From Tricholoma matsutake (Eukaryota > Basidiomycota > Agaricomycetes > Agaricales > Tricholomataceae): a DNA stretch of 64,000 bases. The stretch is from contig AP026544.2 of assembly GCA_026075535.2 (NCBI GenBank), forward strand, positions 1,426,001-1,490,000, read 5' to 3'. Each line of letters starts with the position of its first letter. Position 1 is the first letter of the stretch. The position numbers were made by a program, and so were the translations under genes. Below the pieces are notes generated by a model. The model was not told where the DNA came from and ran no database searches. It was given only the letters and a program-made list of their open reading frames with translations. Below, piece by piece: positions 22,801-58,885 of the stretch.

Positions 22801-23503
22801 ATTACAATGGAAATGGAAGTGGTTACAAATATTTCTAACCGAAGTTGTATGATATATTGTATGTTTTTTTCAGGAACACATTGGTTCTGACTATTCTCAT
22901 GTCAAAGGAAACCTCCATCTACATACATTTTCCCGTTCTCATTTACCATTCTCCCATGTTCGCGCTAGTAGGTGGTATACTATTATGACGGTTCCTTTGA
23001 ACAATTATTATTTTCCGCGCGCGCACAATTGTTGTTATCTATTTATCTCCACCTAATATCAAGCCCCGTCCTAGCGTGCCCTCCGACCTCGTCCTCTCAG
23101 GCTGCAATGTACCTCTAATGTAACTGAGTACTGACAATGCCATCAGCCAGTTCGGGTGGAGGGCAAGATTGAGTGAGCAGAAAGCTGGCAGTAAGGTATG
23201 ACGGTTCCTTTGTACAAATATTATTTTCCGCGCGCGAAGGGATTTCCCGTGCACGCAACGGTGTTGTCCTCATCTAACAATGATGATCATGCATCATGCA
23301 TCATGTCAGATCAGCCCCCATGTGCCTGTTTCCCATCATCATCGATCATTCATCTGCTGACCGTCTCCCACGGTCCATCACCATGCGCCACAGCATCCCG
23401 CTCATCATGTGCGACGATGAGCAAACTATTCAATGAAGTACGAATCATTTCCATTCGCTTTTTTCATTTATTACATAATCCTACATAATTTCCAATTGAA
23501 TTA

Positions 23504-23765
23504 CACTGGCTGCACAGCAAGATACTTCTGAGAAGGTATGATGTCAGTATTCTGGAAGTACTCCTAATACTGCCACCATACTCACCAAGGGATATTTTGC
23601 CAGTATACATACCAATCTAGAATACTACTTCAGTACCTTCAGTACTATCAAAATATAGTACAATACTGTCAAAATACTTCTGGTGAAGTATGTTGACAAT
23701 ATTAGGAATACTGTCAGGATACTTTCACAGTACTTCTCAGGCAGTATTGTGCCTTGCACCCAGTG
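23504..23765. mobile_element. 262-bp foldback MITE with CACTGG ends and TTA target duplication
   Basis: It opens CACTGGCTGCACAGCAAG and closes, on the other strand, with CACTGGGTGCAAGGCAC; the inverted similarity continues inward for 80 bp or more, so it is almost one long hairpin. TTA flanks both sides. The matching region of the outer element (58485-58500) lacks it, which shows the empty site directly. CACT-type ends with a 3-bp duplication suggest a CACTA-like parent. Confidence 0.8.
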
Positions 23766-23923
23766 TTATTACCTTACACCTGCTTGAAAAGATGGATTAT
23801 GCCATTCCAACTGATAATAAATATACATTTTCAATTTTCATAACACTGAGTAGTACAGCATATAACTATTAGATACTTATTAAAAAAGCAAAGATAATTT
23901 GCAGTGGAAAGGCATGCCACGAA

Positions 23924-26795
23924 TAGTGTCATTGGCTGAACTCAGCCATTTGGCTGTCCAGTTCTGCCAAACAGGCAATTGCTGGCAGATGACAGAACCG
24001 TTGGGGCAGAACTTGGCATAACTAAGATATGTTCTCAAAAGTTCACATTCATCATCTAGATATAATTTGATCAAGTAATTAAGTTATGATGATGATGTCC
24101 ATCCGAAAATAAAGGAGCATCAATAAAAAAACTTTGGGCAAGTTTTGGGTCACTGTGAAACAGTTTACCCTCCAACTATGGTACCCAGAATCACTGGAGG
24201 TTGCCCCGCTGCTGCTGTGATTACCAAAAACTTCACGGGTCTTGAGGCTCTAGCCAACAAATCAGGCCGCTATTACTGGAAGTGCAACCATTGCCCTGAT
24301 GGCACACCAGGCAGCCACATCGAGGGATGTGACAACAAGCATGTCAAACATCTCACTGATCCCTGCAAATGCCCCAATGCATCTGAGAGTATCTGTAAAG
24401 AACCACACATCTTTCTTGCTGGAAAAGGTGATGGAGGTGACATTGTGGCAGTGACCCCTGACCAAGAAGGGCAAGAGTCTTCCGATGTTCAGGCTGTTGC
24501 AGTGGTGAAGAAGAGAAAAGGGCTTGAAGGAATCATCAACTATGCATTGACACCAGCTCAGAAGCAATGGGCAGATGTAAAGCTTTTTCAGTAAATTGTT
24601 CAGCATACGTAATTAATCGACCAGTGCACTCACTCGCACTGAATACTTAGCTTCATTGTCCATGCAAATATTGCATTTGCGGCTTCGGAAAATTGGTATT
24701 TCAGAGAATTCCTAAACGAGTTGCACCCTTCATATGAGTCACCATCACAATTTGTGCTTTCACACTCAATTATGGATAGTGAAGCTGCTTGTGTCCAACT
24801 TGAGGAGTTACATCAGCTTTCAAAAAGAACAAAGCTTACTCTGCTTTACGACAGGTGGGATGATAGAATTGGGCATAGCCTGTATGGAGCTGTGGCTTCT
24901 GAGGTTAATCAGTATCCCATTGTTCTAAGCCTTGATGACATGACAGGTCACCGAGGATCAGCTGATATGCTCCTTAAAACATCTCAAAAGGCATTGAAGA
25001 ACATGGATATGGATGATGGAAGAAAGTTGATTGCACTCACCACCGATAATCCAACTGTAATGCAAGCATACAGGAGGAAGTTTCAAGTGTCATACTATTG
25101 GATTCTAGTGTGTTACTATCTCCCAAGCTGACAATGGAACTGTGACAATTGATACGTTGTAGACCTTTGCATGTTTTCTTGATGGGTTAAACACGATAAT
25201 TGGAGAGATTGTTGCATATCCAGAGATGAAGAAAATTGTCACGAAGAGTATGAAAATTGTCACATTCTTTAGTAGCTCCCATTACTGGGGTGGTCAGCTC
25301 AAGAATGAAGCACAAAAGGCAAAGATCAATTGTGGCCTGAAGAAAAATGGGGAAACACATTGGTATGCACTAATTCTAATGGCTCTCAGTGTAAAATCCC
25401 ATCAGTATGTCTCTTGTGGCTGTCAGCATGATAGTATTGATGATAAAAATATGTATGGCTATTCTTCCACTCACCCAAATTTGTATTCGCGATGATGCAC
25501 AGAGGAAGATTGGTGGCCTTTCCCCAGTCTCGCATGATGTTGTTGACACTGTACTTCACAATCGTAACTTTTGGCATCAGATTGACCAACTCATCAAGAC
25601 AATGAAACCAATTGTTGACACAATTGGAAATCTTGAATGCCAAGAAGCATCACTTGCTGACTGCATGCTTGAGTTAATCCATTGCGCATGAGTGATGGGC
25701 TGCCTCCAAATGGATGACAATGATGATCTTGGCTTTCACATGCATGCGAAGGCAGTTTTCAATCGACGTTTCCATTGCTATAAATACAGAAATTCATTCT
25801 CTTGCCCTATTCCTCCACCCTCTCACTTGAAAACTCACCTCTCCCAGGCTGCCAGTGGCCGCTCATTTCAGTTCATGGTCCAGGCTTCACTCAAGATTGC
25901 ACATCAATGGAGGTGGAGTCAGGAAAAAGCTTCTCATTTAGTGGAAGATCTTAAGCAGTACTACCACTGTAAAGGGCCATTTATGGGCAGACAGGCAGAT
26001 GGGCTCGACTGGTGGGAAAGCCTCCCAATCAAACCTGCATCACACCCACTCCAGTCCCTTGCTATCATTCTCCTCTCCATTGTTCCCCATTCTGTGGATG
26101 TGGGACACCTGTTCTCTGCACTCGGAGGCACTCAAACTCCGAAACAATGCAACCTATCAGTGGATACATTCGAGACTTTGGGTAAACTTTGTGCCAACTA
26201 TTCATATCACATTTATCAATGGGATCAGGCAGCTGGAAAGTCCACTCATTGTCGCCACAACCATATGCATACCCACCCTACAAAAGGAATCAATGTTGAG
26301 CTTGTCAAAGAGGTTGAATCAACATTCTGCTATGTATCTCCGGTTGCAGTTTCTTCAAAACCCAATAATGATTTCTTCGATGATCCAGAGGATTTCTCTC
26401 TCGATGAACTGGAAAAGGAGTTTGATGAATTTCAGAAAGAGTTGAACAAGGAAGCACTACCAGATGCTGATGGTGCAGAGGTTCTCGATGGTGAAGTATA
26501 CAACTTTGAAGAATTAGAGTGGATTGATCAGGGTGAGGTCCCTGGATGGCAGGATGTGGAATTGGTTGCTGTTGACAATCATTCTGGCACTCAGACAACT
26601 TGGAATGTAGAAGCACTGATGTCAATGAAGGGAATGGCTGCCTAAGAGTCGACCAGTAGTATGAATTTGTTTTGTAGAAATGTACGACAATTTTCAGGTG
26701 TTGATGGTTCCACTGAGTTCTGCCACCCCTGGCAATTGCTGTTCTGCCAGTTCTGCTGGCATAACTGACCCGGAACAGTTCTGCCACCCACACTA
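23924..26795 (+). mobile_element. hAT-type DNA transposon, 2.9 kb
   Basis: Ends are TAGTGTCATTGGCTGAACTC on the left and, inverted, TAGTGTGGGTGGCAGAACTG on the right (15 of 20 match). An 8-bp duplication GCCACGAA (23916-23923) / GCCACAAA (26796-26803) flanks it, differing only by a CG to CA change. The sequence on either side is continuous in the outer element near 58310-58345, confirming the insertion point. Subterminal repeats containing GGCAATTGCTG occur at both ends. Confidence 0.85.
24178..26645 (+). pseudogene. hAT transposase, broken
   Basis: BED-type zinc finger near 24280-24370 (C-N-H-C-P ... H-x-K-H-L), then an RNase H-like DDE domain including W-D-D-R ... L-Y-G and the D-D-M-T-G-H-R-G-S-A-D block (24850-24975), and a C-terminal dimerisation domain with W-W-E-S-L ... 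H-P-L-Q-S-L-A-I ... V-P-H-S (26010-26160). Probable introns lie at about 24612-24652, 25110-25160 and 25405-25485. An in-frame TAA at 24592 (CAA to TAA) and TGA at 25689 (an expected Arg) disable it. The protein would bind element ends and cut and paste in the nucleus. Confidence 0.8.
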
Positions 26796-26814
26796 GCCAC
26801 AAACCATTGTTCAA

Positions 26815-29360
26815 TCAACGTTGACCATGCACATGATAAAAGAATTGTTTCCAGTGTGTTGGATTATTTCTCCAAAGTGAGTATATTATAGTAAATACAG
26901 CATCATATGCACAGCTGTTATTACTCCATATTAAACCAGAAGGAGGTGAAATCTGAAATGTTGTAATACCAGATGCCATGTGAGTTGTGTTGTGACTGGT
27001 TTTTGCTTTTTTCTTTAGATTTTCAGTTGTGGAATTATCAGTTATCATACTGATTTTTCTTTTTAAGGATTTACTTGAAGCAGAAGTGGGATTAGCTTTT
27101 GCAGGAGTAGCTGCAGCATGCTTCTTCTGTTTTTCTACAATTTTCCATCTGACATCTTCTATTTCAGGTTCTAATAAAGGATCTCTGGAATTCCATCTAA
27201 TTGCTTTGTGTACAGTTGATGGTACATGATGCATTCCTTTCCATTGTCTAAAAGCCATGATTAGCATATTTCTCTGTTCACCAACCACACTTCTGTGCAA
27301 TTTTCCATTATATCTCAAGTCAGTAATTTCATCAAGCAACTCTAGCTCTCTGAATTCTTGTCTTAAGGCACCAGAAGCACCACCTGTAATTTTTTGAGGA
27401 TGAAATGACTGTGTTATTAGTGTACCAGCTGCAGTTGCACTGTGTGACAATGCTGTGTAGTAAGACTGATGAGAACAATTGTCATTAAGGTTTACTACAT
27501 TATAAGGCCTAGTTTTACCTTGAGAAGCATAATCTGTCATAGAAAAGTTGGGAAGAACCTCTATCTGGGTCCTTGACACATGTACCTTTGAGTCATCAGG
27601 CAAAGAACAGTAAACTGGATTTGTAGTTTTGTATAATGGTACAATATTTTCAGGAAGTCCATGAAATTTAACATCAGATGGAGGATTGGTCAATTTGACA
27701 AAAAGTGTTTCCAATGTTGGTTGACCATGTACACCAGGAGATACTTTCCAGTCATATACTGTAGCTTCTTGACCTTTTGTAATACAAAGTTCTGTTGCAC
27801 CATTATATCTTATCACTACAGGTAAGCCTTTACATAAGGATAATGTTCCGGCTATATGTCTGTCAATTGTACTATATGGCCGATTCCAAAGAATCTGCTG
27901 CAACTTGTCTGATATCTTATCAAGTTTAAGTACAGAACCTTTGAATTTGGATTTCTCTGAGTGGACTTTTTGAGAATCTTCAGAGTAAAAGTGTGTCAAT
28001 ACTTGTCCAGTTTCAGCAGCAAAGCATTCTGAGCCAAGCTTGTTAATCTCATCCTTGTGAACATTTAGTGCAGTAATAATTGATATGTCATGGAACTTAT
28101 CATCACATACAGATGGTTGTCCAGATATGGGAGATGATATAAGTGTTTGTAAAAATGCAATGTCTGTAGGTGTACAGGCCTTGTACCTCATATTTTCCAA
28201 TGCTGTACGAAATTAAGCATCTTCTGGAGTCTGGTTTTTTTGTCTCATGTTTTCCTGAAGTATAACCACTGTAGTTACTTGATGCCACAAAGATTTTCCT
28301 ATTGCTTCTTCCTGAGATCTCTGAGTTGATGCAATAGCTCCAATATTTTGACTATATAAAGAAGTTCCTTCACTACCTACAACTGGTGGTAGCTGTGCAA
28401 AATCACCTGCAAATAGCATACTTAAACCTCCAAATAGCTGCTCTGGTATGTTCAATGCAATAGCAAGCTGACATGAGATACGATACATATCATGACAAGA
28501 TAACATAGAGACCTCATCCAAAAAGATATAATCTACTCCAATAAGTCTAGATCTCACCTGAGCTAAATTTGTAAGTCCTTTCTCATTATAGTCACTAATA
28601 CCAAAAAGTGAGTGATAAGTTGATCCTCCAAGCAAAGCAGCTGCACTTCCTGTTGGTGCTACTACTATAAGTCGATATGATTCATTTCTTTCCTTGAAAC
28701 TGCTTTTTAAAGCTTTTAAAACTTGAGACTTGCCAGTTCCAGCCATTCCACCAATATACATTTGTAAAGGTTCTGAATAAGGATCACTAGCATGTGTGGC
28801 TACAATGTGAAATGCCTTTTCTTGCTCAGTGTTAAGACTGAATTTCTTAACTACAGTATCAAGAACCTGTTGTGTGTCAGGCTTGTGGATTTTTTTTGTT
28901 AGATAAGATTTGTCAGCAATTTTAACAATATTTGAAGACAACTGTTCAAGATATTGTTCAGTTTCAAGCTTATGATTTGCAGGCATTCTTTGCTTCGCTG
29001 CTCCAGAACCTCTTGCCTTTTTTTGGCAACTTCATTTTTCCATTCTAATCCTGATAAGTTGCGCTGGATTGGCAGAGGGTTCAGTTCAATATTAGTATGA
29101 GTATTGACCTGGTTTTCAGCAGTCCAACCAAGGTTGGTCATAATATTTTGCATGGTCATAGTTTCCCATTGCGTTCTTATTTCTCCTTTTCCTAACTGGA
29201 GCAAATGAAGAGGAATATCATCTTGATCATCTTCAGGATAGTGTGCATAGAGATTATCAGATGTACAATCCTCCAAGAAAGTAGAATCTGCTTCTTCCCA
29301 TGTAGACAAAACACCGGCATTTTTCTTTAATTGAGCCCGGTAATCATCTCTTGCATCCAA
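26815..29360 (-). pseudogene. Helitron Pif1-type helicase with a C-terminal cysteine-peptidase start
   Basis: Walker A G-G-M-A-G-T-G-K-S (about 28728-28754), Walker B F-L-D-E-V-S-M (about 28505-28528) and the Y-A-S-Q-G-K-T motif (about 27515-27535) define an SF1 helicase of the Pif1/RecD2 group. A frame change separates 28213-28986 from 26815-28200. After a basic linker the protein enters S-G-L-I-W-S-N-N-S-C-A-Y-D (26890-26930), the form of a ubiquitin-hydrolase Cys box, and stops 30 residues later at the truncated end. The helicase would unwind the strand displaced during rolling-circle transposition. The peptidase role is unknown. Confidence 0.75.
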
Positions 29361-32300
29361 ACATTCAAATCAAATATTGAAATTCTTCATAAGTTCCAAT
29401 TGTCTTTCAGTGAATAAGTAATTACTAAAGGCATCATTCCAGCTTTCAATACTAAATTTCAGTTCCTTTCCAGTTTGCCAAGGCTTAAAAAGAGTAAGCA
29501 TAGTAGAACAATAATATTCTCTATCTCCTTGATCACAATGGGGTAAATTGGCTCCAATAAAGTTAACAACTATATTATCATCATCAGGGCCAACCTTGAT
29601 ATGATGGGTGTTGTAAAGAGGATGAGTGTTTGTAAACTGATAGAACTGGTACTTGTTTTTTTCACTTCTGTCAAGGTTGGAGGCTTATCTTCAGAACTAT
29701 ATTCTGTATCAACAGACTCAAATGATTGGTCTCCAATTAGTTCAGATTGCATAGATAAATCTCCTTTATCACCATTGTTGGGATCATCAGAAGCAGTATT
29801 ATCTAGCTTTGACTTGCTTTTTTTGGTCATCTTTTCTCTTTTGAATCTTCTGATCCAATCATATAGTGACATGTTCTCAAGCTCAGGTGCCCGATAAATA
29901 TAATCAAAGACAGGTGAAAGACCTATTATCTTACCCTTCAGTTTCAAAAGTGCCACTTTAATTGAAAAGCTTGTTGCTTCTTCTGGATGCCAGACTTTGC
30001 GAGCTTCAGATACATATGTTTGCCAGTAAAATGGAACAAATTTGTGACTGGTATAGTGATCAGGATTTCCTAGCAAATACATGGATATCATAATTGCACC
30101 CATTTCCATTTTTGCTGACAACAAATTCACTACTTTTGCCATCAATTGCCTTGCTTTCTCTCTACTTGGCAGCATGCCATTAACAAGTTCCATGTTTTTA
30201 GTAAAGATTGATTTGATTGATTCAAAAATAACATGAGTTTTCAAGGGGGCCTTAGTTATATAGTCAGATACATAGATAGTTACTGCTTTAATAGCAGTAC
30301 CTGACATAAGGCAAGTAACATCTGTGTTGCAGCGGAAAATATAAGTCAATAAGGGTGTAAAAGTATTTAGCCAAGGTTCTCTCTTTTTCAAATCTAGTGA
30401 ACCAGTTTCCTTGTCCATATGTGTTTCTTGAAATAAAGGTCTGGGAAATCTTGCCTTGCATTTGCCCCATTTATTGTCCATGCAGCCAGTATATACATGC
30501 CTTTTATTTGTACTTCCATCATTATTTTTATTTCTATTACAACTATGGACATTTGACTTGGTAAGAAGATCATCAACTGTTTGGTAAAAAGACCCCACCA
30601 TGTACTTAATTTTTTACATGCATGACATGTTTCATGAGGATCTGATTTTTTACAAGCAGGAGGAGGCGGCCAAGGCATGGTTTGTGTTGGGTTTTTATAT
30701 TCTGGCAATTTCTTCTTTGAGTCAATCTGTGCCATGACATCTTCTTGTGTGCCAGTGAAGTATTCTCCTGAAACACAGCTTTCCAACCATTTAACAAGAT
30801 TCTTCTGGAAATCAGAATCAGAATCAAGTATTTTGTGTCACATTTCTTGTGGTGTCAAAGATCCTTTTATCCAGAGCAAGAGATGCATATGTAGTGTGAG
30901 CCAGCCCTGTTGTTCAACAGTTCCATAATATGCCTTAGTATCTCCATACAACCCACGGTGTTTGGATTTTACACCCAATACATCTTCAATAAAGGTTTGG
31001 ACCATGAAATGAAAAAATCAAGCACTTGCTACTGGATTTTCACATATACGATGAATTCTGTCACTCTCATCCAATATACAAGGCTCAAACTTAGTATCTG
31101 TTCCAGCATAATAGAGACATATTGGATGCTTAACATCAGCAGGAGATAAAGTTATATACCAGGATGGTGCTCCACAATGATTCACTAATGACCAAATTTC
31201 ATTCCGCATGTATTTTTTACTTGTCATGGATCCTTTGACACTTCCAGCAATATGATCCAAGTCTTTTATAACTTGAAAGCAATTTTTCTCTTCATCAGTT
31301 TCAGCTACAACATAATCTCCACCAGAAATCTTTTCAATTAAACCATTCAGAACAGTCTGATCAAGATTCAAAAGTCTGTCTGTAATAGCTTGAAACTTGC
31401 TTTTCTCAGCAAGTAAGAAACTTTGAGTTGTACTTGTCTTGATTTGTTCATGACTAAATGCAACAAATGGAAAATTGACATCTGTCTGAAATCTTTTGTC
31501 ATGATACATTAGTAAATGTCTTTTGTGCTCTTTGTCAGACAAACCAGCTGAGCCAATACCTCCTAGTCCATATGGAAATAACCAGGGAAACATCTTAGGA
31601 TAAAGTTGTGGATTATCCCATGTAGATTCAGCCTTATTGCTATGGCCTACAACCAGAAATTTTCCCTGAGAATTTAAATGCTTAAGTGCAAGCCCCTTTA
31701 GTCTATTAGTGGTCATAGTATCCAATTTCTGTCCAGTCAGCCCATGTACAGTATAGGCACAGTCACCTTCAGCAGTACCATCTTCATCATCCATATCATG
31801 TAGACTAGTTCCTTCCAATGTTTATTACTTGAGAGAGGCTTATACTCTACTGAGCAGGGTGGTCCATCTTCAGGATACTCTGCCAGATTTTTATGTGAAA
31901 TGTCTATATCTGCATAATCTCTGTGGTTTAACTCCAGCCACTCCAGTGCTTGTGCTACATAGTGCCGTCGCACAAGAACCAAGGATCGATTATAATCTTC
32001 CAGAGTTGGTTTGCATGGACCAGTAAAAAAAATTGCAAGCACATCATCCATTTCATCTCTAGGAGGTGGAATTTTACTATATACCTTAGGAATGGGAGTT
32101 TCAAATGCAATTGCATTAGCTTTCATTTGATGGCCCCCTTGCCCTCTGCCTTTAACACATGCAAGTGATTTTTAATAGCTTTCAATCTGCTAAGTTCCTC
32201 AATTGGTACTAACTCACCACATACAGCACAACCTCCTTCTTCAATTTTATTTTTTGTCATCTTTTTACAGGCTCCATCTGCTATGTCTCGTGCAAGAGCA

Positions 32301-33217
32301 CTAGTCAATGGCTCTGGTGGAAACGGAAAAAAAGAATTTATAGTACTTGAACTATTCAACTGTTCTTTGAATGTGTTAGTACTTAGAGAATTTTCTTGCT
32401 TCTTTTTCTTTAAGTTTGCTCTATGACATTGTAACCGTGGTAGCTCAATTGAAAATACACTAACAAGTACATTACATTGGGGACAGGAGTGGTTTTTTAA
32501 ACAGGCCTGTAAGGTCTTTTTACTGTCACGAGCACTAGTATGACAACCATGGGATTTTGCCATTTTCAGTAGAGTAGTTGCTGAAAGATATGGGGTAAGA
32601 TCTTGAAGTGGCATGTTAACATAAACAAACTGGCTTGGTGGGTACTGCAATAGCCCAACATCATTTACATGATCAGCATATTTGAATACATTCTTTGTAA
32701 TGTCCAGCTGGTTTTCATCACGTGGTAACATATATGGCTCTATTCGAGAGTAGGAGAAAACACAAGCAGCATGACCTCCCATGTGAAGAGTTCTATTATA
32801 TGGCACAAATGTTGCTGATGCATCCTGTTTGCAATATCCTCTGGGGTCATGTACTTTATGAAACTTGGATAGCAGATAAGGCACATTCTGATTGCAAGCA
32901 AAAAAAGTCTGATCTTGATATTTTAGTGGATGTAAACTTACAAGACCACAAAGCATGGATTTCACAAACAAATACAAGAAATGAAACTCTTTAAGGGCCT
33001 TATGCCCAAGACAAGAAAAAGTTGAAAACAAATAAGATATAGTTGAACAATCATCATCATATTTATGTTTTACAAGAGCCCAGAGCAGTGCCACAAAATC
33101 ATGTTTGTACATTACATTCTGTTTCAGTATCAAGGATAGTGTCTGGACCCTGACTGAGACATTGACTACTGGAAGAATATTGAGGGACAGTATCCAGTGT
33201 TGCAAATGGAACAGCAA
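26824..33217 (-). mobile_element. Helitron (rolling-circle transposon), decayed and truncated at its 3' end
   Basis: Coding order on the minus strand is: zinc-finger-like N-terminus, DUF6570-type region, HUH Rep endonuclease, Pif1-type helicase, start of a cysteine-peptidase domain. The coding sequence ends within the sequence shared with the outer TIR element (26803-26833), so the 3' end lies at or beyond that junction and the rest of the peptidase is missing. I could not find a TC 5' end or a CTRR 3' end with hairpin, so the outer boundaries are approximate. Confidence 0.8.
29570..33217 (-). pseudogene. Helitron Rep (HUH endonuclease) half of the Rep/helicase protein
   Basis: N-terminal region 33217-32123 has Cys/His-rich blocks. 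A P-P-P-R-D-E-x-D-D-V-L block (32070-32020) starts the DUF6570-type domain. The HUH motif reads L-H-M-H-L-L-L-W (about 30870-30893), and two tyrosines four residues apart (Y-V-S-D-Y-I-T-K, about 30253-30276) are the expected nucleophiles. Between 32123 and 32126 the reading jumps from a Cys-C-containing block directly to the DUF6570 block; relatives have about 80-100 more residues there, so a deletion is likely. A TGA at 30838-30840 replaces an expected Arg, and frames change near 30600 and 31810. Confidence 0.75.
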
Positions 33218-34372
33218 AAAAACTAAATTTCTGACTCACTGCCAAAAGTTAGAAAATACCTCTGCATAACTAAAGTAAGACAAAGTGCAGTTTAGTTGCC
33301 TTATGGTACAAGAAATTAAAGGAACAGATATATGTAACACATGTTTAATAAAATATTGAGAGCAAGAGGTTATACCGTGACTGTATTTGCTAAACAGATT
33401 GCCGTTGCCTCTGAAATGCATTGGCACTGAAGTTGATGCCAACCAAGATATAGAAGTAAAATCATGGCATAAGTCAGATATGTTAGAGAAGTTCACATTG
33501 GCATAGAATGTAAGAATTGGATAAAAATTCAAGTTTTCAACATATTCTTTGTAAAGAATGCCCCAAAAGGGGTTTGTCAAATCACCCACACCAAGGGTAT
33601 CCACGTTGGGTGGATGCAAGATGCCCTCATTGGGGGAGCCCACATTTGGGGCTAGGTAGTTGTCTCCATTGGAGAAACCCATTTTGGGGTCCATGTAATT
33701 TCCACAAACAGAAATGCTGATGCAGGGGGAAATACTGTCGCTATCCTGGACATATGCTAGAAAAGTTGGTAGCACGCAACACATCAATATTATAGCAACT
33801 GGCTATTCATACTGTACAATTGGTTGGAAGGGCTTAAAAACATAACCCTTGGATCATCTGTGCTTGCAAAGGTAGTCAAAGGAAGTCTACTATGAGTCAT
33901 GCTGGTGAGGTAAGAACTATTGAAAAGGTCTAGATGAATATCTGGCCATATTCAGTTCATGGTTCTCAAATGAATTCATACCATACCATATGAGAAGAAG
34001 GACCGCAGACCCTGGTGACCAGTGCTCTCTGGTGGACGAGACCTTGGTGCCAGATTATTGCCTAACACATGTTAAAGTCAAGGCTGGAATGTGAGTGCAG
34101 TATAACATACCATTGGACATGACGGCAATCAGGTATAAGCAGAAAATCACTAGCAGGGAGAGCTGTTCGAATGCTTGCAACATGGTGGTTCGAGATTGAG
34201 AAGAAAATTGGCAATCAAAGTCGTACCACCTGTCAAGGATGGATTTCGAATGGGAACTTCCAAGAAACTTTTCACATGATTCATGTTCAACCCATACCAG
34301 AGGCTAGAGACTATTTGCATTTACAGACATAGACTCTAGTAGATACAAGAGAAAGTAATACACAGATAGAGG
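33218..34372. other. Unassigned segment between Helitron and SPT5-like relic
   Basis: No gene supported. A 183-residue minus-strand ORF (33236-33787) has no recognisable domain. The part 33540-33700 is built of short GC-rich units (CCCATTTTGGGG and similar). The string GGGGGAAATACTGTC at 33727-33741 resembles the polypurine/LTR start of Gypsy-2 at 52695-52710, but similarity does not continue. Confidence 0.4.
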
Positions 34373-42959: not shown

Positions 42960-43072
42960 GAAAAAATATAGAGTCAGACCAGGCCCATACTATAGCATAT
43001 TTCAATATTACTCCAAAGGGCAGGACAGTCGCCCAATTTTAGATGACAGCGCTATCAGGGAGAAAACAGAAA

Positions 43073-45615: not shown

Positions 45616-45670
45616 GACAGGCAGGACTCCCAGTTCCTGCCTACCTCAGAACAAACAAAGCATCAGAAAC

Positions 45671-46376: not shown

Positions 46377-46416
46377 GTATATATGAACTCACACTTCACT
46401 CATCCATTTCCTCTCT

Positions 46417-47807: not shown

Positions 47808-50800
47808 TCCGCAACCCTCAGGATACAGCCATTGGGGCTGGGGGTTGCATTGACCTTACCCACTTGGCTGCCTACATTCGTCTCAACGCATCCGCTCTTT
47901 CTGACCCTGACTCCTTAACCATTGTTTTAACCTTTCCCGAATTTTCTGCCCCTTTCCAAACCCTTATCGACTCTGGCTCCTCCCACTGCTTCCTTGACTC
48001 CTCTTTCATGTTGAATAACCAACTCAGCATGGAATCCATTAACCCGATCGGTTTACGACTCTTTGATGGAACTTGCAACTCCACTATAACTCAGATCATC
48101 AAACTTCCGGTCACCTTCCCTGCTGGTGAAGTATTCAATTTGTCATTTTATGTAACCTCGCTTGACTCTTCCTGTTCCGCCATACTCGGTCATAACTGGC
48201 TGAAGCAATACAATCCATTGATTGACTGGTCTTCAAGCCAACTCGCTTTCCGCTCTGCAGATCATAGAGGTCCAGCACCCCTGACGTCACCTTTGTCCCC
48301 AAATCTTCCGGTAGAAATCTTTGACTCTTCCGCACTTTCCAAACCCCCCATTCCTCCTAAGTTTACACCTCCCGACATCTCCTTCATCAACGCTGCCGCT
48401 TATGCACATGCTAGCAAACTTCCTGGGGCAGTAGCTTTTCAGATGACCTTCGCTCCAGAAGGGTTATCCACCCGCTCCGCCCATTCCACTAACTCTTCTG
48501 ACCTTTCTGAGATTCCACCTGAGTATCACAAATTCGCTGATGTCTTTAATAAGACTAAAGCGGATACCCTTCCTCTGCATCGGTGCTACGACCTCAAGAT
48601 AGAGACAGAAGACAATACTCCTCCGCCTCCGGGCTGAATGTATTCTCTCTCCCCCTCTGAATTAGAAGCCTTATGAGTCTTTATTGACAAAAACGTCCGC
48701 TCAGGTTTCATCCGCCCATCCAAGTCACTGCATGGTGCCCCTATTCTCTTCATCAAGAAGAAGGACAGTAGTCTCCGACTTTGTGTCGACTACCGAGGAC
48801 TTAACCATCTTACAAAGAAAGACCGCTACCCACTTCCTCTCATTTCCAACCTACTTGACTCTCCCCGCAAAGCCCGCTTGTTCACCAAAATAGACTTGTG
48901 GCACACTTATCACCTAGTCCACATCGCTGATGGTGATGAGTGGAAAACTACTTTCTGCACCCACTACGGATCCTTCGAGTGGTTGGTGGTCCCCTTTGGG
49001 CTCACTAATGCACCCGCAGCTTTCCAGTGGTTTATGAACGACATCTTCAGCGACATGCTGGATGTTTGTGTCATCATATACCTCGACAACATCCTAATCT
49101 ATTCCGATGACAAGTCCCAGCACGGGGCTCACGTCAAAGAAGTCCTCCACCATCTCCGGAAAAATGGACTTTATGCCTCTCCACAGAAATGTGAGTTCCA
49201 CAAAGACACCATCGAATATTTGGGTTTCATCCTTTCACCGGATGGACTATGGATGTCCAAGGATAAAGTCAAAACTGTGCTTGACTGGCCCAAGCCTAGG
49301 AAAGTTAAGGATATACAATCCTTCTTAGGCTTTTGCAACTTTTACCGCCGCTTCATTAACGGCTATTCAGACATTGTCATCCCACTCACCTGCTTGACGC
49401 AGAAATCTGCACCTTGGGACTTCAACAAGAAGTGCCACAATGCCTTTGAAAAGCTCAAACAAGAATTCACCCACGCCCCCATCTTAACACAATGGGTACC
49501 TGACTCACAGATGGTACTCAAAACCGACGCTTTTGACTATGCCCTAGCGGCTATCCTTTCAGTTTACACTGCGGATGGAGAAATCCATCCGGTTGCTTTT
49601 CATTCCCACTCCTTCAATCCCGCTGAACTAAATTACGACACCCATGATAAGGAACTCTTGGCCATTTTCAAAGCTTTCTAACACTGGCGGCAGTATTTTG
49701 AGGGTTCCGCAAACCCGATTGATGTGGTCACTGACCACAAAAATCTTGAGTACTTCAGCACTACCAAGTTGCTCACCCGCCGCCAGGCCCATTGGTCTGA
49801 GTACCTTTTGCAGTTCAATCTCGTCATCCGCTTCTGCCCCGGAAAACTAGGGGCCAAACCAGACGCACTCACTAGACGTTGGGACATCTACCGCAAAGGG
49901 GGAAATAGCGACTTTGCCTCCATAAACCCAACCAACTTCCAACCTGTATTCACACAGGAACAGCTCACCTCTTCCCTCCGCGCCACCTATTTCACCACAC
50001 CCGTCCTTCAACAAGCAGTATTCATGGATGTTGAGAAACTTCACCATGACATCCGCACCTCCCTACCCCTTGACCCCTTTTCATCTGCACATCTTCCAAC
50101 ACCTACTGACCCCAACTGGGCCATAGACGAGGCAGGTCTTCTCTGCCACTTGGACCGGATTTATGTTCCAAACATCGTGGATCTTCACCTCAAAGTCCTT
50201 CAGTACAAACACGATCACATCCTCTCTGGCCACTTCAGACAAAACAAAACCCAGCAGCTTGTCCACCAGGAATATGTCTGGCCAAACCTCCGCACCTTTG
50301 TGCAAGAATTCTGCAAATCCTGTACCACTTGCAAATGATCCAAATCACCCCGACACAAGCCCTATGGGTTCCTAAAGCAACTTCCGGTTCCAGAATGACC
50401 TTGGAACTCCATCTCCATGGACTTCATTGAACAACTACCTGACTCCAATGGTCACACCGCTATCCTGGTCATTGTTGACCGCCTCACCAAGCAAGGCATC
50501 TTCATCCCAACTGTCAATGAAATCACAGCCCAAGAACTAGCCAACCTGTTTGTCCTCCATGTCTTCTCCAAGCATGGCATTCCATTGCATGTCACTTGTG
50601 ACCAGGGATCTGAGTTTGTCTTCCATTTCTTCCGCTCCCTCGGAAAAGTGCTCGACATGCAGGTCCATTTCACTTCCGGTTATCACCCACAAGGTGATGG
50701 TCAGACAGAACGACTTAATCAGACCCTGGAGCAGTACCTCCAGATCTTCTGCAACTATCAGCAGGACGACTGGTCTCACCTCTTACCCTTGGGCAAATTT

Positions 50801-51493
50801 GCCTACAACAATGCTCCTTCTGCCTCTACAGGCATATCCCCTTTCTTTGCCAACAAAGGCTATCACCTGAACATTTCCGTTTTTCCAGAACATGACTTAG
50901 CTTCACAGCATGCCTGCGAGTTCATTGTTGACTTAGATGACCTTCATCAGGAGCTTCAGAAACAGCTTGCGGCCACTCAAGAGCATTATCAAGGTCCTGC
51001 AGACAAACATTGGGCACCCGCACCCGACTTCAACATTGCTGACTCTGCCTACGTCACTGCGGAAAATATCCGCACCACTCATCCCTCCAAGAAACTTTCT
51101 GAAAAGCACCATGGGCCCTTCAAAATCATTGCCCACCTAGGCACTCACTCAGTCACCCTGTGGCTCCCGGATCACATGTGGGCCATTCACCCTGTTTTCC
51201 ATGTCTCTCAACTAGAGAAACACTCCCCGAACACAGTTCCAAATCGAGTGCAACCTCCACCTCCTCCGATCACCATCGACGACAAGCTTGAATATGAGAT
51301 CACCGAAGTCCTCGACTCCAAAGTTGACAACCGACATTGCTGCAAGATTCTCTACCTCGTCCGATGGGAAGGTTACCAGGGAACCAATGAAGAGACCTCC
51401 TGGCTACCTGTTATGGAACTTGAGCACACCCAAGAACTCCTTGCAGATTTTCACTCCCGCTACCTGCAAAAACCCGGTCCATTACCCACTTAA
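47801..51493 (+). pseudogene. Pol of Gypsy-2: protease, RT, RNase H, integrase, chromodomain
   Basis: One frame from the gag overlap to TAA 51491-51493, interrupted only by TGA at 48635, 48674, 50336 and 50396 and TAA at 49679. The protease has intact D-S-G (47970-47978). The RT active site reads Y-L-D-N (49079-49090) where Y-L-D-D is required; the Asp to Asn change is GAC to AAC in a GACGAC context, that is a CG to CA transition. Integrase has an HHCC finger (50190-50335) and a DD35E core (codons 50477, 50600, 50708). The chromodomain is at about 51290-51450. The copy is inactive but recently so. Confidence 0.92.
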
Positions 51494-51579
51494 AGGCTAT
51501 TCACGTTGCTTATTCACTTGGTTTGTACTCAGAAACAAAATTCATTGAAAAAAGATTTTTTTTGGATCCGACCGGATCC

Positions 51580-52568
51580 CTACACTACCTCCGCTTCTCC
51601 CTCTTTGTCTTTGTCACCCTCTCCCCCAACCTCACCCTCTTCTCCACCCTCGTCCTTCTCTCCACCCTCCTCATCTCCACTCTCGCTCTCCTCCTCATCA
51701 TCCGCTCGCCTTTTCTCCAGATATCTCTGGAAGGCCTCCCAGTCATCTCCAGACTTTTGGATCCCACGTCTTTCCCACTGGGACTCTTGCACCGCCCGCT
51801 CCACCTCTTTGTCACCCTCGTCGCTCTCCTCCCCGGCACTTTCTTCCTCCACCCACTCTGGGTCCAAGGTGTCCTGTATCTCTCCCATTGATTCCCACAC
51901 CGCAGTAGCCACCTCAGCAAACCCCTTCCTTATCAACTTCATCATTTGTTGCATTATTTCCAGGTTTTCCCTGGTCGCCCCCGTCGTTCCCGCCGGTTTT
52001 GCCACAGGGGCTTCCTGCCCCTCCCACACTACCTCCTCGCACTTATGTTTGACGCATGTGCAGTTGTCGCACACGCGTCCCTTCGCACCCATCTTGAAAC
52101 AAGCGATCTTTTGATATCTGCACCTAGGCCACTTGTCAGTACAAAGAGACTGGAAAGGGAAACAAGTATGTACCATTTGCAAGGCAATGTGGCCTGCACC
52201 TGCACCAGACCCTCCAACTCCTCTGACCCCACTCGCACCTTCGACTTGGTGACTTTCTTTTTCTTGGGGGACTTGCTCCCCTCAGCCTCATCCTCCAAAC
52301 TTGTGGCCACAGCTGCCCACTTCTTCTCCGCTCGTCTTGTGGCCAATGACTCCTTTTTCTGCGCCTCTGCCTGACGTGCCTCCTCAGCCTTTGCAGCCTC
52401 CTCTGCTGCCTTCTGCGCCTCCTGTGCCCAGTGTTCCTCCTCCCTTGCTGCTTCCTCCAGCTCCTTCATCTCCCATTCCATCTGCTCCTTCATCGCCTGC
52501 TCCCTCTGTTCGTGTTGAGCCCTCATGATGGCCAATTTGATCTGCGCAGATACTGCTGGAGGGGACAT
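51580..52568 (-). CDS. Antisense accessory gene inside Gypsy-2: coiled coil, Zn-cluster-like, acidic tail
   Basis: Two exons on the minus strand: 52568-52200 (from ATG 52566-52568) and 52149-51580, joined by a 50-nt intron (52150-52199, GTGCAG...CCAG) that is phase 0 on both sides; 312 residues. Residues 10-80 form an Ala/Glu/Lys/Arg-rich coiled coil, a basic patch K-K-K-K-V-T-K-S-K follows, then a Cys region just after the intron with C-x6-C and C-x2-C-x6-C spacing reminiscent of a Zn2Cys6 cluster with its first pair altered, and finally a strongly acidic tail (last 60 residues). The reading frame has no defect, unlike pol on the other strand. Function unknown; the layout suggests DNA binding. 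Family members with this layout recur in mushroom genomes. Confidence 0.65.
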
Positions 52569-52705
52569 AATTGATAGTTGATGGGGGAAGGAAAGAACGT
52601 GAAAATTTTTTCAACCAATTACCGCATTCAGAAAATTCAACCAACTTCCTCATTCGGACTCAAACCCTCACGTGCCTCGTAGGCTCGGCACTAAGGGGGA
52701 AATAC

Positions 52706-53411
52706 TGTCAAGAACCGTTCCTTGCCTGATTGGAACCCGCATCCATCTGACTCTTGCCCACACATCAAACATGACTTTTGTCTACGCCTCCCAATTTTGT
52801 TCCTGGCTGCCTTGCACTGCCCACGCTGCTGTGCATCAGGCCACCTTGTACAGCATCCACGGCTGCCTTTCCAAGGCTGCTGTCTCTATTGCAAATTTGA
52901 CTACGGATTCCTGTGCGGCTCCCATAGGTAATTTATCTACACAGTCAAGACACTGCTGCAGTCTTCATTCCTGTTCTGCATTATTCTGGACTACAGTATT
53001 TAAGCTTAGTTAGTTTCACCTTGTATTCCTCAGTTTGTATATCAACATAGACTCAACTTTACCCTGCCAATCTAAAACCTCCTTCTACTCCAACCCCTGT
53101 CCTCTAAGAGTCTGAACTACATTCGACTCAACCTCTAGTCTCCCTCCGAAGTTCTAGTCTCATCTGAACTCAACCTAAGTCCCTCCGTACTCCTCCCTGC
53201 ATTTACCTGCACTTTCCTGCTCCTACCTCTAAACCCTCGACTTGAAATTAGGACACCAGACGAGGTGAAGGGCACAGCTTCTTACAAGCTGAAGCCAAGT
53301 CCTTTCCGTTCCCCCTCCCGCAGAATCCGCATCGACCCAACAATCTCCCGCTATCATCACCCACAGTGTCCGGTTGGATTCTGAAGCGGCCTCTAGGATC
53401 AGTTCTTAACA
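52706..53411 (+). repeat. 3' LTR of Gypsy-2
   Basis: 706 bp, the same length as the 5' copy; followed by the GAAAC duplication. Preceded by AAGGGGGAAATAC. Confidence 0.97.
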
Positions 53412-53416
53412 GAAAC

Positions 53417-54140
53417 TGTATTAACTCAGTTCATATTCACACATACTTTATAGTTACAACATCCTTGATGGGACTTTGGCTTTTGACATGCCTTCTGTCA
53501 CTCTTGACAGCAGGAGGCAGGGTAGCAATGTCTTTTTTTTCAAGCACCAGGGTGGGCTTCAAAGACGACTTAGAGGAGCCGGCCACCCTAAAAACCAGGA
53601 TAAAGCTGGAAGATAGTGACATGTACAAAAAAAGAAACGTACTCAGAAATCTCTGCGGTACCAAATTTAAGTTGCTTTGAAGAGGAACCCAAGGTAGACG
53701 CCCTGCACAATTATAGCAAATGAATCAGAGAGCGATTGTACAGTAACAAAAGTAAAACTTGCCTTTTGGATGACACTGCAGGCATGTCATCGTATTCTGG
53801 GGTAACAGGAGAGGCGAGGCAACTCTTCTTGGGGCTGCACCAAGACAATTTCAATTCTCTGCGACACAAGACATTAGCCCACTATTGACTATAGTGCTGG
53901 ACTCTTACTCTTTGCTTGAAGAATCTTGTTTGTCTGTTTTTCATTTGTGCGACTTGGGGCTACAGACCTCAAGTCAGAACAGCTTCATCTGAAAAATAAA
54001 TACTCAAGCACTAACCGGGGGATATTTTCAACTGGAGGCAGAGACTCGCTGCAGCCAAAACACAAAAAGATGAATCGGCCTGGAGCTAGTCAAATGGAAA
54101 GGACGTACGACGATGCTGTTATTGTCAGTCATGATCGAGG
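53417..54140 (-). pseudogene. Fragment of a multi-exon gene, unknown function
   Basis: The minus strand shows short coding stretches separated by possible GT-AG introns: a Ser/Lys/Pro-rich block (about 53880-53760), a short block ending near 53640, and a block (53589-53437) with S-S-K-S-S-L-K-P-T. The composition resembles the N-terminal half of the gene at 43073-45615, which Gypsy-2 now separates from this part. It could be that gene's displaced upstream region or a separate partial copy. I cannot decide. Confidence 0.3.
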
Positions 54141-55189
54141 AAGGTGCTGATCTATTGGTGGATCAGCAACAACAAGGAAAAAAATGTGGACGTTGTACCC
54201 AGTGATTTTTTTAGTGCGGGCCATTTCAAAATAGGCGAATGCAAAGTGATAGCAAAAGTAGATGGTTGGAGGAGACAGAATTTGTTGGTGGGTAACAAAA
54301 GCTGCAAAGACTTTATAGCAGATTGGAATGGGAATATCCGAGTCAACGAGCAGAAACCGACTGGATGTCTGTCAGAACAGGGATCAATAAACTGTGCAGA
54401 AGAGTGGGTGTAGCCAGGAGAAGCAGACATACCAGATGAAAGGTCTTTAACCGACTTACCTGTCATAGACCAACACCAACATATTGGCTGTCAGGCTTTT
54501 ATGGAAAGATCTAACAATAAGTGTACTACAACTGAAGGATATATTTATCAGAAAACAACACTCTACACAGTCAACATTCTGAAAATACATGTCGACAAAG
54601 GCGAGGCAGGGAGTAACAACATTATGGGTCGTCAGGTCCAGTCAAGAATCCTAACTGAACAGGGATATTCACATAAACTTTGACAGTGAAATTGGTACTT
54701 ACATGATAAGTCAAAAACTTCGATCCCCATAAGACAGAAATAGACAAATAACATGAGTATATCAATAAATCATCTCAGCCAGATATGACCTAAGAACTGA
54801 GCAGGCACCAGTTTTCAAGGGGGGGACACGAGAAAGGCATAACCACAGTGTGACCCACACTTGAGGATGGTATGGCAAGAAAGAAGGACGTGTAGTTCCC
54901 GCCTGCCAAACAAACTTTAGGCTGGTGGATCTAGCAACCTGAAATACAATGATCACAGAAAGATTCACATAATTACGCAGCACCAAAGTGCTCCTGCGAT
55001 GTAACAAATTAGTCTAACCCAATTGTGCAAAAAGTACAATAATCGCAGGAAGAGCCAGAAAATTACCCACACCACCAACCTGCTCCTGCGACATATTTTC
55101 CTAATGCCAAAATATGGATCTCCACTACAATAACAAGGCTGCTGGTGAGGGTCAACAAAGATAATTCATAGCACTAAAATGAATAAGCA
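54141..55189. other. Segment without an identified gene
   Basis: Only short ORFs on both strands with no recognisable domain. The sequence CTCCTGCGA(T/C) occurs twice (near 54990 and 55082), with AATCGCAGGA between them at 55041, which hints at an old inverted repeat, but no boundaries are clear. Confidence 0.3.
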
Positions 55190-56110
55190 CACATAGCTGA
55201 TGCTCTGGAGGCTATTGCCCAAACCAGAGTGGACAATGCTCATGCTGGCACCCAGTTATCTGAACTTACTAAGGCAAGCTCAGTGTTCCCCTGTGCAACT
55301 CCCAGCCTAACATACAATACTTACAGGATCCTGATTGGCTATCTCATTATACTGTGGAAGAAACCAATCCTCAGTGATGGTGCCTGGCATTTAAGGGCAA
55401 AGATGAAACCCTGGAAGAAGCGATTTTAAGTGTTCAAGGGATCATCTGGCAAAAGGACCTACCCCCATTTGTGAAAGAAAGGTACCCCTTATTCTATACC
55501 CAGAAAGCATGTACTAACCAGGTGTCAGCCTACGAAAAGCTCACGTCAGATTCCTCAAACAGTCGGTATCGATGACAGGATTTCAGACTCCATCTTTTCA
55601 GGCAGCAGCAGACAACTTATCGAGCATCTATGCAGTCTTCGCTCGGTGTGTTCTGCCCACCAAGTTACAAGCCTGGGTACTAGACAACTATGAAGACTTT
55701 CATTCTGTAAGTGCATCCAACAGACTTTTCATGGCTAGAATGGAGGCCCCGACCAACCCTGCCTTGGAACTCGGTCGTGATGTGGACCCCCAGGGAAAGC
55801 TGGCAGAACTTGCTCAAGGCCAGTATTTTCATGGCGAGGACAACAAAGTTAGATACTGGGAAAGAACCGTCAATTGCCTTGGAGGTGGCTATGAGTAAGT
55901 GGCAGAACGGATGGCCTAATAAATGATTACAAACTGTATAATAGGTTTGTACCCACCTTGCCCACAAGGATTCAGGTCAGAGACATTGTTGAAGCAAAAT
56001 TATCATTCTTGGCAGTACCTTTGAGAGGCGGAAGTTTCAAAATGATGTTAGTTCTTCGAGATCTAACCCTCCTAGATGGAAACTATGCCCACATAAGCCG
56101 TTATTCATTC
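55190..56110 (+). pseudogene. Partial copy of an unnamed Agaricomycete family
   Basis: Blocks on the plus strand: D-N-A-H-A-G-T-Q-L (55230-55275); after a probable intron (to 55327) D-P-D-W-L-S-H-Y-T-V-E-E (55328-55365) with an internal TGA at 55374; F-L-K-Q-S ... the 108-codon stretch 55572-55898; and V-R-D-I-V-E-A-K-L-S-F-L-A-V-P-L-R-G-G (55975-56035) followed by V-L-R-D-L-T-L-L-D-G. The last block is the part that I recognise from multi-copy mushroom proteins. No function is known. It ends in a stop near 56113. Confidence 0.4.
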
Positions 56111-56940
56111 CTGACATAAACTTCACTGAACTCCTCCAAGAAAGCCACGGCAGCTCGTGCTTTGTGCCAAATTCAACCGACTCCTGTCGTGCCACTGAAA
56201 AGACACATAGGATACCAAGACGAACAGGAAGGCGAGGCTCGAACAAAGTTAAGTAGGATGGAATTGGATGAAGGACGAAACGACTTAGATTAGTCTTTAG
56301 ACTCACCTATCTAGATCGTATACACTATTTTTGGCTGCCAAGATTGATGACGACATAAGCAGCAAATAACTCATTTAGTTACCAGAGATGATGTCTACGA
56401 GCGTCTACACTTTTTGGGCCTCCTGGTTGATCAGCGTTAATCAGCATTCTCGTAAAAGTTCCATCAAATCTCCGTAGTATCACCTTGACTTCAGATGTTG
56501 AATTTTAACCTATTCCTTAACGCATAAATTAAGTTTAAAGTGCCCTGAACAACTAAACTCTACAAGGACACCCAGTTGACCAGGATTATGCTTCCTGAGA
56601 CAATAAAACTACCATGGACTCAACCACTGCAAAACGGCGGTGATGGTTGACAAAAAGAAGGGCAAAACAAACAGCTGCCAATACAGCCCATGCAGAATGG
56701 CAATTGCCAAATGGAAGTTCGGGGACGTCTTGTAGCCGGGTGCTGATGATCGAACCTGCACAATTACAAGATTTAAATTACTTAGGCCCTTTCTTGAGGC
56801 AGTCTAATAAAATGAGATCTATCCAATCACTACAAATAAATTCAATGAAATAAAAATATAATATGTAGAATGGTTAGTACGGAGTACAACAGGATGTTGG
56901 ATATAAGCTATGCATTTATTAGAAGCGATCCATGGGAGGT
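56111..56940. other. Segment without an identified gene
   Basis: AT-rich with stops in all frames, no repeat structure seen. Probably decayed sequence of the 35-kb element. Confidence 0.35.
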
Positions 56941-57560
56941 GGGCGGGCACGATAGTTGCTGTCGCCTTTGCTGTCGTCTGCTATGGTGGTAGTGGTGGTG
57001 GCCATTGTCACATCGTTCATGGCCATCGCTTTGTGGTTGTCTCTTTGTGATTGCCACAGTCATCCTCTGCTATCGTTCCCCTGTCGTTGGTCTTCCCCCA
57101 TTCACACTGTTCTCCCTGTCATCAGCTCGTCCCTGTCGGCTCGTCACCCTGCTCACAGATGGTGTCTTCATCATAGTCATTGTCCCTCTGTTGTCCTTCA
57201 TCCTTGTCATCCCCATCCCTGTCCCAGCCATCCTCTTCCTTGTCCCTGGTCCCTGCTGTCATTGTCCTTCCTCTCATTGTTGGTGTCGTTCTCATTGTTG
57301 TTTCCCCCCCGCCCTGTCATTGTGGCACCCTCTCACCATCTTCGATGTCCACCCCACGAGCAGCTGCTCGCAGCGGTGGGGGTCTGGTAGGTGGGTGCTG
57401 GCAGCGGTCATCATCTTCTGCACCTTGCTGTTCATCCTCATTGCTGGGCCAAGTTGTCCCCATTGTCCCAGTTGTTGGCTCTCATCCTGGTGTCTCGTCG
57501 TCCTGATCGATTATCCACCCTGCGAGCAGATACTCGCAGCAGTGGCACAGATGTAGGTGT
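56941..57560. repeat. Pyrimidine-rich low-complexity repeat with palindromic 30-mers
   Basis: CT-rich on the plus strand (CCTTGTCCCTG, TCATTGTCC units). Two palindromic motifs built as CCACC-n-CGAGCAG...CTCGCAG-n-GTGG stand at 57349-57380 and 57509-57536. The same motif and a purine-rich counterpart recur at 62820-63500, in inverted orientation. The long ORFs here are artefacts of the base bias. Confidence 0.55.
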
Positions 57561-57977
57561 AGGTCTGCTGTCTTGGTGCTGTCTCGTGGTAATAGAACCT
57601 AAAGATCAAATCAAAACCTTTGTTAGTTGAACTTGAAGAGAAAAGAGAAGAGAAAAGAAGAGAAGAACTTGAAAAAATATCACTTAGGCCCAACAAACAA
57701 CTTGTTTGCAGCCATACATTGTGTTGCTGAGCATGGTTGAGGAAGTGTGACTCAACATGACAGTTTCCTCTTTTGTTCAAAATCTGCGTGTTGGTAAAAC
57801 CTGCTGAATATGAAAATATGTAAGGGGCTGAGTTTGACTGACTTCAAAATATAAGCCTGCATTCAGACAGACTTGAAACTCCGAAGCCTGCTGAGCAGCC
57901 ATCAGACTTAACGTATCACTTTTGCTGGGTGGTTGGTCGAGTTAAAAAGACAAGTCCTCGTACCTCAGACTCGTAAC

Positions 57978-58131
57978 ATTGCAGCCTGAGAGGACAAGGT
58001 CAGAGGGCACACTAGGACGGGGCTTGATAGGGCTTGATATTAGGTAGAGATAAATAGATAACAACAATTGTGCACGCACGGGAAATCCCTTCGCGTGCGG
58101 AAAATAATAATTGTACAAAGGAACCGTCATA
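57978..58131. repeat. Right terminal region of the inner 35-kb element
   Basis: Inverted match to 22984-23109 (left end of the outer element), ending GGAACCGTCATA at 58131. Differences between the two are mostly CG/TG or CG/CA, plus indels of 19 and 9 bp. Confidence 0.8.
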
Positions 58132-58309
58132 GTAAGGCCATAGTGGAATCAACAAAGAAACCGTGGGATCCCAAATAACAAATTCTTGTTACTATGTTAC
58201 TATATTGATATCTACCTACGCTACATAAGTAGCTAAGGACATACTGAGAAGTAAGCCTCGATGCTTCTCAGGCATCGATCATCGATCATTTCAGCCCACA
58301 TGCACCGTT

Positions 58310-58784
58310 AACATTGATTGAACGATGCTCGAAGTCGTGGCATGCCTTTCCACTGCAAATTATCTTTGCTTTTTTAATAAGTATCTAATAGTTATATGCT
58401 GTACTACTTAGTATTATGAGAATTGAAAATGTATATTTATTATCAGTTGGAATGGCATAATCCATCTTTTCAAGCAGGTGTAAATAATTCAATTGGAAAT
58501 TATGTAGGATTATGTAATAAATGAAAAAAGCGAACGGAAATGATTCGTACTTCATTGAATAGTTTGCTCGTCGTCGCACACGATGAGCGGGATGCTGTGG
58601 CGCATGGTGATGGACCGTGGGAGACGGTCAGCAGATGAATGATCGATGATGATGGGAAACAGGCACATGGGGGCTGATCTGACATGATGCATGATGCATG
58701 ATGTTAGATGAGGACAACACCGTTGCGCGCGCGGGAAATCCCTTCGCGCGCGGACAATAATATTTGTACAAAGGAACCGTCATA
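58310..58784. repeat. Right terminal region of the outer element
   Basis: Inverted match to the left end of the inner element (23197-23503, 23766-23923 and 26800-26833), with the MITE and the hAT missing. It keeps the CG-alternating hairpin near 58727-58754. Confidence 0.85.
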
Positions 58785-58885
58785 TACTATCAGTAAATAA
58801 GCTCGCTTCGTCACATACAGTCAGACGCCTGTTTACAAGTGCCAAACACCTTTCCTTCCCCGGCCTTCTCCCCCGTATTTATGCC

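Follow-up and report, generated by a model that had tools for sequence, protein, structure and literature searches.

Architecture of the locus

The 35.8-kb locus at positions 22978..58790 of the window (the whole 64,000-nucleotide stretch of Tricholoma matsutake DNA analysed, C7:1426001-1490000) very probably arose in place as a stack of nested transposons, and the element with terminal inverted repeats (TIRs) that delimits it would itself be gene-free. This element is a miniature inverted-repeat transposable element (MITE), of which one copy lies inside another. The initial annotation of the window had seen here a 34.9-kb TIR element inserted in its own small relative; the insertion in opposite orientation, with 6-bp duplications of its own, stands, while the size of the TIR unit does not. 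The genome searched for copies was TMA_r1.1 (13 contigs, 161,040,721 bases).

The sequence TATGACGGTTCC begins at 22984 and 23197 on the forward strand and its reverse complement ends at 58131 and 58784, which are the positions and orientations of the four inverted termini originally reported. The target site duplications (TSDs) are exact at both levels. TACTAT abuts the two outer ends (22978..22983, identical to 58785..58790) and GTAAGG the two inner ends (23191..23196, identical to 58132..58137). Two random 6-mers of the window are identical with a frequency of 3.3e-4 (2,000,000 draws), so that both matches at the predicted places have a chance probability of about 1e-7, in line with the earlier view that they are unlikely to be fortuitous. 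Alignment to an 806-bp MITE consensus also bears out the proposed polarity of the ends, A-left/B-right in the outer copy and B-left/A-right in the inner one.

The outer MITE (plus strand) is composed of an A-end part, MITE 1-232, at 22984..23196 (91% identity to the consensus) and of the remainder to the B-end, MITE ~233-806, at 58138..58784 (97% over 58262-58784, MITE 285-806). It measures 860 bp once the inner copy is removed. The undisturbed GTAAGG site is found in 11 of 11 other small copies aligned, where no element splits it; it reads exactly CAGTAAGG in eight of them, carries 4 extra bases in two and has two substitutions in one. The inner MITE (minus strand) is broken into a B-end part, MITE 806-507, at 23197..23503 (96%), a next part, MITE 509-352, at 23766..23923 that ends in GCCACGAA (99%), a short stretch at 26796..26835 and an A-end part, MITE 146-1, at 57976..58131 (89%). 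MITE sequence amounts to about 650 bp of the 34,935-bp inner interval when the other layers are subtracted (the CACTA-like insert being taken as 260 bp). The notion of an inner TIR element of about 17 kb with multi-exon genes is thus not sustained, since the interior consists of separate repeat families with copies elsewhere that lack these ends.

Note that the right part of the window, positions 50987-61883, is duplicated at C5:2802968-2812809 (L055 and beyond) minus 57628-58579, with an identity of 98-99% outside the stack and 97% inside. No duplicate of the left flank of the outer MITE was found at the C5 locus among the 40 of 62 candidates scored.

The MITE family

The genome contains 42 occurrences of the terminus TATGACGGTTCC (10 of the reversed control), some of which sit in an unrelated repeat, TATGACGGTTCCGGTGAATAACC (L051, L053, L054). 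The 806-bp consensus, with 61-bp TIRs, was built from the 860-bp outer copy of the window and 11 other small copies of 757-817 bp. The solo small copies with differing 6-bp duplications that had been anticipated do exist, and the family has the attributes of a MITE: short length, TIRs, a TSD and multiple copies. An exact 6-bp TSD is found in 14/21 end pairs, directly adjacent to the ends in 12 and outside a tandemly repeated terminus in 2 (L040, L047/48). A further 3/21 have a 5-bp duplication, at L044 and, outside a repeated terminus, at L043 and L045/46 (flanks judged by eye). In the other non-exact pairs the duplication is displaced by 2 bp (L063), lies within a short repeat (L058) or is missing (L066, L067).

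In four of the 21 MITE copies the terminal 12-19 bp are repeated in tandem beyond one end (L040:5743-5759, L043:1261-1280, L046:2651-2663, L047:199-218), and the target duplication then lies outside the added repeat; such doubled termini are possibly the trace of imprecise end cleavage. An inverted MITE dimer in which two A-ends meet head to head, one of them lacking 13 bp, is present at L047:789-1260 (C7:2684574-2684873) and at C10:4521745-4521984. A search of the open-access PMC literature retrieved no description of the TATGACGGTTCC MITE family.

Layers inserted in the inner MITE

The boundaries of the layers, their TSDs and their copies elsewhere were established by comparison of sequences. 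The CACTA-like, hAT-like and Helitron-like stretches are each found elsewhere without MITE ends. The leftmost insert is a 262-bp CACTA-like MITE at 23504..23765 with termini CACTGG..CCAGTG and the TSD TTA (23501-23503 and 23766-23768). It has at least 36 other copies at 96-100% identity (40/406 candidates scored) which end at 23759-23776, most of them no more than 3 bp from 23765; the query started at 23504, so this search tests the right bound only. The hAT-like element at 23924..26795 (plus strand, 2.9 kb) has the short TIR (TAGTGT..ACACTA) and 8-bp TSD (GCCACGAA/GCCACAAA, one mismatch) of hAT transposons, together with a weak DUF659 similarity, and a copy at C5:9895323 begins exactly at its left end, 23924. 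It is followed at 26796..26835 by the second copy of its TSD and by MITE sequence to ~323 (84% over 37 bp).

The largest layer, at 26836..57975 on the minus strand, is a Helitron-like element that includes a gypsy insert. Its RepHel gene region (26836..33235) codes, in the order typical of Helitron proteins, for a Helitron_like_N domain (31021-31821, E=1.3e-17) and a PIF1 helicase domain (28216-29031, E=2.4e-25). No frame is open throughout 26836-33900, where the three frames have 97, 150 and 133 stops (introns not modelled). The right end of the element, ...GACTYRTAA, is common to the window, the C9 copy and five other copies, and gives way to unrelated flanks in the 7/7 copies read. Divergence just beyond the shared sequence in all seven identifies ~57975 as the 5' terminus, which reads TTAYRAGTCYRAGG in each of them and lacks the canonical 5' TC of Helitron1; the first bases of this sequence may be those of the host or those of the element.

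At the left junction the RepHel and MITE sequences overlap by 2 bp. Many matches start at 26836, which was considered as a Helitron terminus and rejected because in the C9 copy the RepHel frame stays open for 17 more codons (..THWKQFFYHMNCDLLEEICNGFNNHS) beyond this breakpoint; the pile-up of match starts is uninformative, since a truncated query must produce such a picture. The simplest reading of the two junctions is that the window copy would have lost both the Helitron 3' end and MITE 147-322. At its truncated end (26818-26900) RepHel reads NNSCAYDAVFTIIYSLW, which presumably resembles the beginning of a cysteine-peptidase domain. Helitrons with VTD deubiquitinases have been described (available text of PMC9741609).

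The gypsy long terminal repeat (LTR) retrotransposon inside the Helitron-like element occupies 45671..53411 (plus strand). It has TG..CA ends, the TSD GAAAC on both sides and LTRs that are 96% identical over 725 aligned columns, an alignment which overruns the true ends. An LTR piece at C6:8761106-8761506 likewise ends at 53411. Four gypsy-free loci have the flanks 226-235 bp apart (C10:9704601-9704832, C2:4774122-4774351, C5:1011960-1012195 and C5:3099163-3099389).

Other large copies of the MITE

Further large end pairs span 4.6-16.7 kb and have 6-bp TSDs (L039, L041; L040 and L047/48 outside the repeated terminus). The MITE halves of the large copies are broken at differing points: ~735-748 in L039, 331-338 in L041, 316-324 in L045/46, 396-397 in L047/48, 569-573 in L057 and 457-461 in L068. 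The inserts comprise a Plavaka-like tnp2 element (L041), a Harbinger DDE element (L040), a copia element (L057) and gypsy elements (L047/48, L056, L068), where "Plavaka-like" and "Harbinger" are names given here to matches to Pfam Transposase_21 and DDE_Tnp_4, respectively. Similarity among ten inserts compared is limited to five, those of the window, L045/46, L047/48, L056 and L068. Four of these contain gypsy elements and that of L045/46, whose one scanned frame has no Pfam match, resembles them. The prediction that all large copies would share a gene coding for their transposase has failed for these ten inserts, among which only gypsy-type sequence recurs. As judged from their sequences, the large copies examined are MITEs loaded with differing transposons at differing positions.

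Positions 1-6142 of the window hold a gypsy-type element with terminal repeats of ~400 bp. Its relatives interrupt the MITE in L068 and adjoin a MITE end in L056; the two inserts, 94.6% alike over 6.2 kb, both match it.

The Helitron-like family and its cargo genes

Without the gypsy insert the Helitron-like element of the window measures ~23.4 kb, a lower bound as its 3' end is missing. Segments 26836-34500, 33900-45500 and 53410-57976 match many loci colinearly, for example C8:3184102-3220028 and, with extra DNA, C8:8163566-8218274. The colinear matches listed stop short of the MITE ends, though the queries included them. An 80-bp probe taken from one copy detected eight copies at 98-100% identity, four at 89-90% and three at 79-84% (15/15 candidates). 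The distance between the equivalents of 26836 and 56.4-56.7k is 22.1-22.5 kb in five of the eight near-identical copies (C1:9.06, C1:13.38, C1:3.67, C5:2.29 and C6:12.14 Mb), and ~22.1 kb in the window copy minus its gypsy element. The copy at C6:10.83 is shorter (17.2 kb), and those at C10:0.46 and C13:0.045 gave no span from the matches scored. At C6:3581402-3583828 the two ends of the Helitron-like element, right and left, are in tandem order ~2 kb apart (coordinates only), a disposition that could reflect tandem copies or a circular permutation.

Three cargo genes lie within the element. The Spt5-like gene (35360..36622, minus strand) codes for an NGN domain followed by KOW motifs. It matches SPT5 chains of the PDB (to E=1.2e-9) and, below the cut-off, Pfam Spt5-NGN (E=0.0023) and KOW2_Spt5 (E=2.7e-5). 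A reading frame of 660 amino acids (40977..42956, plus strand) has two metagenome relatives that are 91 and 62% identical (8000 candidates scored) and no Pfam match above the cut-off.

The dioxygenase-like gene (39077..40269, plus strand, two overlapping frames) carries HxD (39344-39352) and LHFHGG (39494-39511), which together supply the HxD...H metal triad of 2OG-Fe(II) dioxygenases. HxD is conserved in 22/23 aligned relatives with letters there and H in 25/25 (25 of 44 relatives aligned). Sequence comparison of the gene gave no meaningful Pfam or PDB match to TET/JBP or other proteins, and searches of solved-structure sequences with its alignments returned none in one case and two chance-level matches in another. 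Structural models of its relatives may resemble TET/FTO dioxygenases. NgTET1 and FTO rank beside oxygenases that act on other classes of substrate (thebaine demethylase, SpoC, prolyl hydroxylases), and above CcTET, TET2 and CMD1.

Equal spacing suggests that the cargo genes are present in the eight young Helitron-like copies; the segment search, with 16 of 87 candidates scored, included none of them. It is conceivable, at somewhat less than even chances, that this is a giant Helitron family of at least 23.4 kb with recent activity, in which a nucleic-acid dioxygenase of the TET/FTO kind, an Spt5-like elongation factor and the 660-residue protein are integral anti-silencing cargo and not the result of accidental capture. 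If so, the cargo would keep the Helitron unmethylated and transcribed, as a private chromatin and transcription toolkit.

Proposed origin of the stack

We propose that a non-autonomous MITE of ~0.86 kb would have inserted first, duplicating TACTAT, and that a second copy would then have entered it in opposite orientation, duplicating GTAAGG. Both copies presumably owe their mobility to a cut-and-paste transposase of the IS3EU type supplied in trans; no such enzyme was found among the MITE copies read. Later, the inner MITE may have received the CACTA-like MITE, the hAT-like element and the large Helitron-like rolling-circle element, itself the target of the gypsy retrotransposon. A deletion would have joined the RepHel interior to MITE ~323, removing the Helitron 3' end and MITE 147-322.

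Several observations weigh against this scheme. MITE 147-322 (176 bp) is missing from the inner copy, hence the Helitron-like insertion is not clean and a deletion has to be assumed. In the hAT-like element one TSD position is mismatched and the DUF659 match (E=0.0014, 18.8 bits) stays below the Pfam cut-off of 34.7. The match to the MITE at 26796-26835 is by itself short and weak (E=0.082 in a small search), and its assignment is supported by its position directly behind the hAT-like end. Seven of the 21 end pairs have no exact 6-bp duplication, and the count leaves out C2:11270525-11285179 and C1:8201367-8216957, both read in part. No autonomous partner was present among the MITE copies read (40/63 and 40/58 candidates scored; no search with a transposase model was made). 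Finally, on C8 the last matched piece of a MITE (B-end at 8239641) is ~15 kb from the Helitron-like copy that ends at 8218274, the two being oriented to each other as they are in the window. This pairing is read as a probable coincidence because the MITE, which has a copia insert, is continuous to position 246, past the window breakpoint at 323, because no MITE A-end was found on the far side among the matches scored, and because 71.6% of the T. matsutake genome is reported as repeats in the available part of PMC10211490.

The same C8 piece would agree with a large autonomous TIR element of 17-35 kb with multi-exon genes of its own, from which the small copies derived by internal deletion, as would the intact ends and TSDs around 34.9 kb and the other large end pairs with 6-bp TSDs. 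This explanation is nevertheless very improbable: the interior segments belong to repeat families that are bounded independently and have copies devoid of these ends, and the MITE halves are broken at differing positions around inserts of which the ten compared have only gypsy-type sequence in common. A different route to a mobile 35-kb unit is that the MITE gained the 31-kb Helitron-like block by repair, in replacement of MITE 147-322, and moved with it into the outer MITE. Both breakpoints inside the MITE with 176 bp replaced, the overlap of only 2 bp at the left junction and, slightly, the C8 locus speak for such a capture. We consider it improbable as the block ends on its right at the terminus that the seven Helitron-like copies read have in common, which is expected of insertion, no second locus has the same block between MITE ends among the candidates scored (40/63 and 40/58), and intact movement of a 35-kb MITE derivative appears unlikely.

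That two unrelated MITE copies were juxtaposed by chance or recombination is hardly credible. Rearrangement does occur at the locus, as attested by the partial duplicate of its right side on C5, from which 952 bp spanning the MITE ends are deleted, but two exact TSDs at the predicted sites are not expected from it, and joining the two parts of the outer element restores a full-length MITE. With nested insertion in place as the preferred account, the claimed new class of giant TIR elements falls away. A MITE of ~0.8 kb can mimic a 35-kb transposon with perfect target duplications via layered insertions, and what is isolated instead is a fungal family of Helitron-like elements that are of unusual size and include cargo genes. 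It thereby becomes testable whether rolling-circle elements of fungi bring along a demethylase and an elongation factor of their own to counter silencing.

Comparison with known systems

The MITE termini TATGAC..GTCATA and the TSDs, mostly of 6 bp, fit the IS3EU type. IS3EU/GingerRoot DNA transposons have TA..TA termini and TSDs usually of 6 bp (as given in the available text of PMC10045372), and the MITE resembles them by its TA..TA ends, 61-bp TIRs and duplications (14/21 of exactly 6 bp, 3/21 of 5 bp). It differs from the Pucciniales IS3EU families, which begin with TAYGG according to the part of PMC12730594 available, in that it starts with TATGA and that no transposase was found in the copies read.

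The Helitron-like family, at 23.4 kb or more, exceeds the sizes of 6-7 and up to 14 kb given for fungal Helitrons in the available part of a 2019 review (PMC6431247). Like HELPO1 of Pleurotus, as far as described in the accessible text of PMC4289320, it has a RepHel protein with Helitron-like N and PIF1 domains, extra genes and several copies; unlike HELPO1 it has the 5' end TTAYRAG instead of TC and a different cargo. The Spt5-like gene is an additional component of the matsutake element: "KOW" is absent from the main text of PMC12730594 and no description of a Helitron with an Spt5-like gene was found in the open-access PMC literature. The HxD motif of the matsutake dioxygenase-like gene differs from the HxE of the PE type found in Agaricales. 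The fungal transposons that carry TET/JBP genes include Helitron2 of Agaricus bisporus (both statements from the available portion of PMC12730594), to which the matsutake element is similar in that both are Helitron-like elements of Agaricales mushrooms that carry a dioxygenase-like gene.

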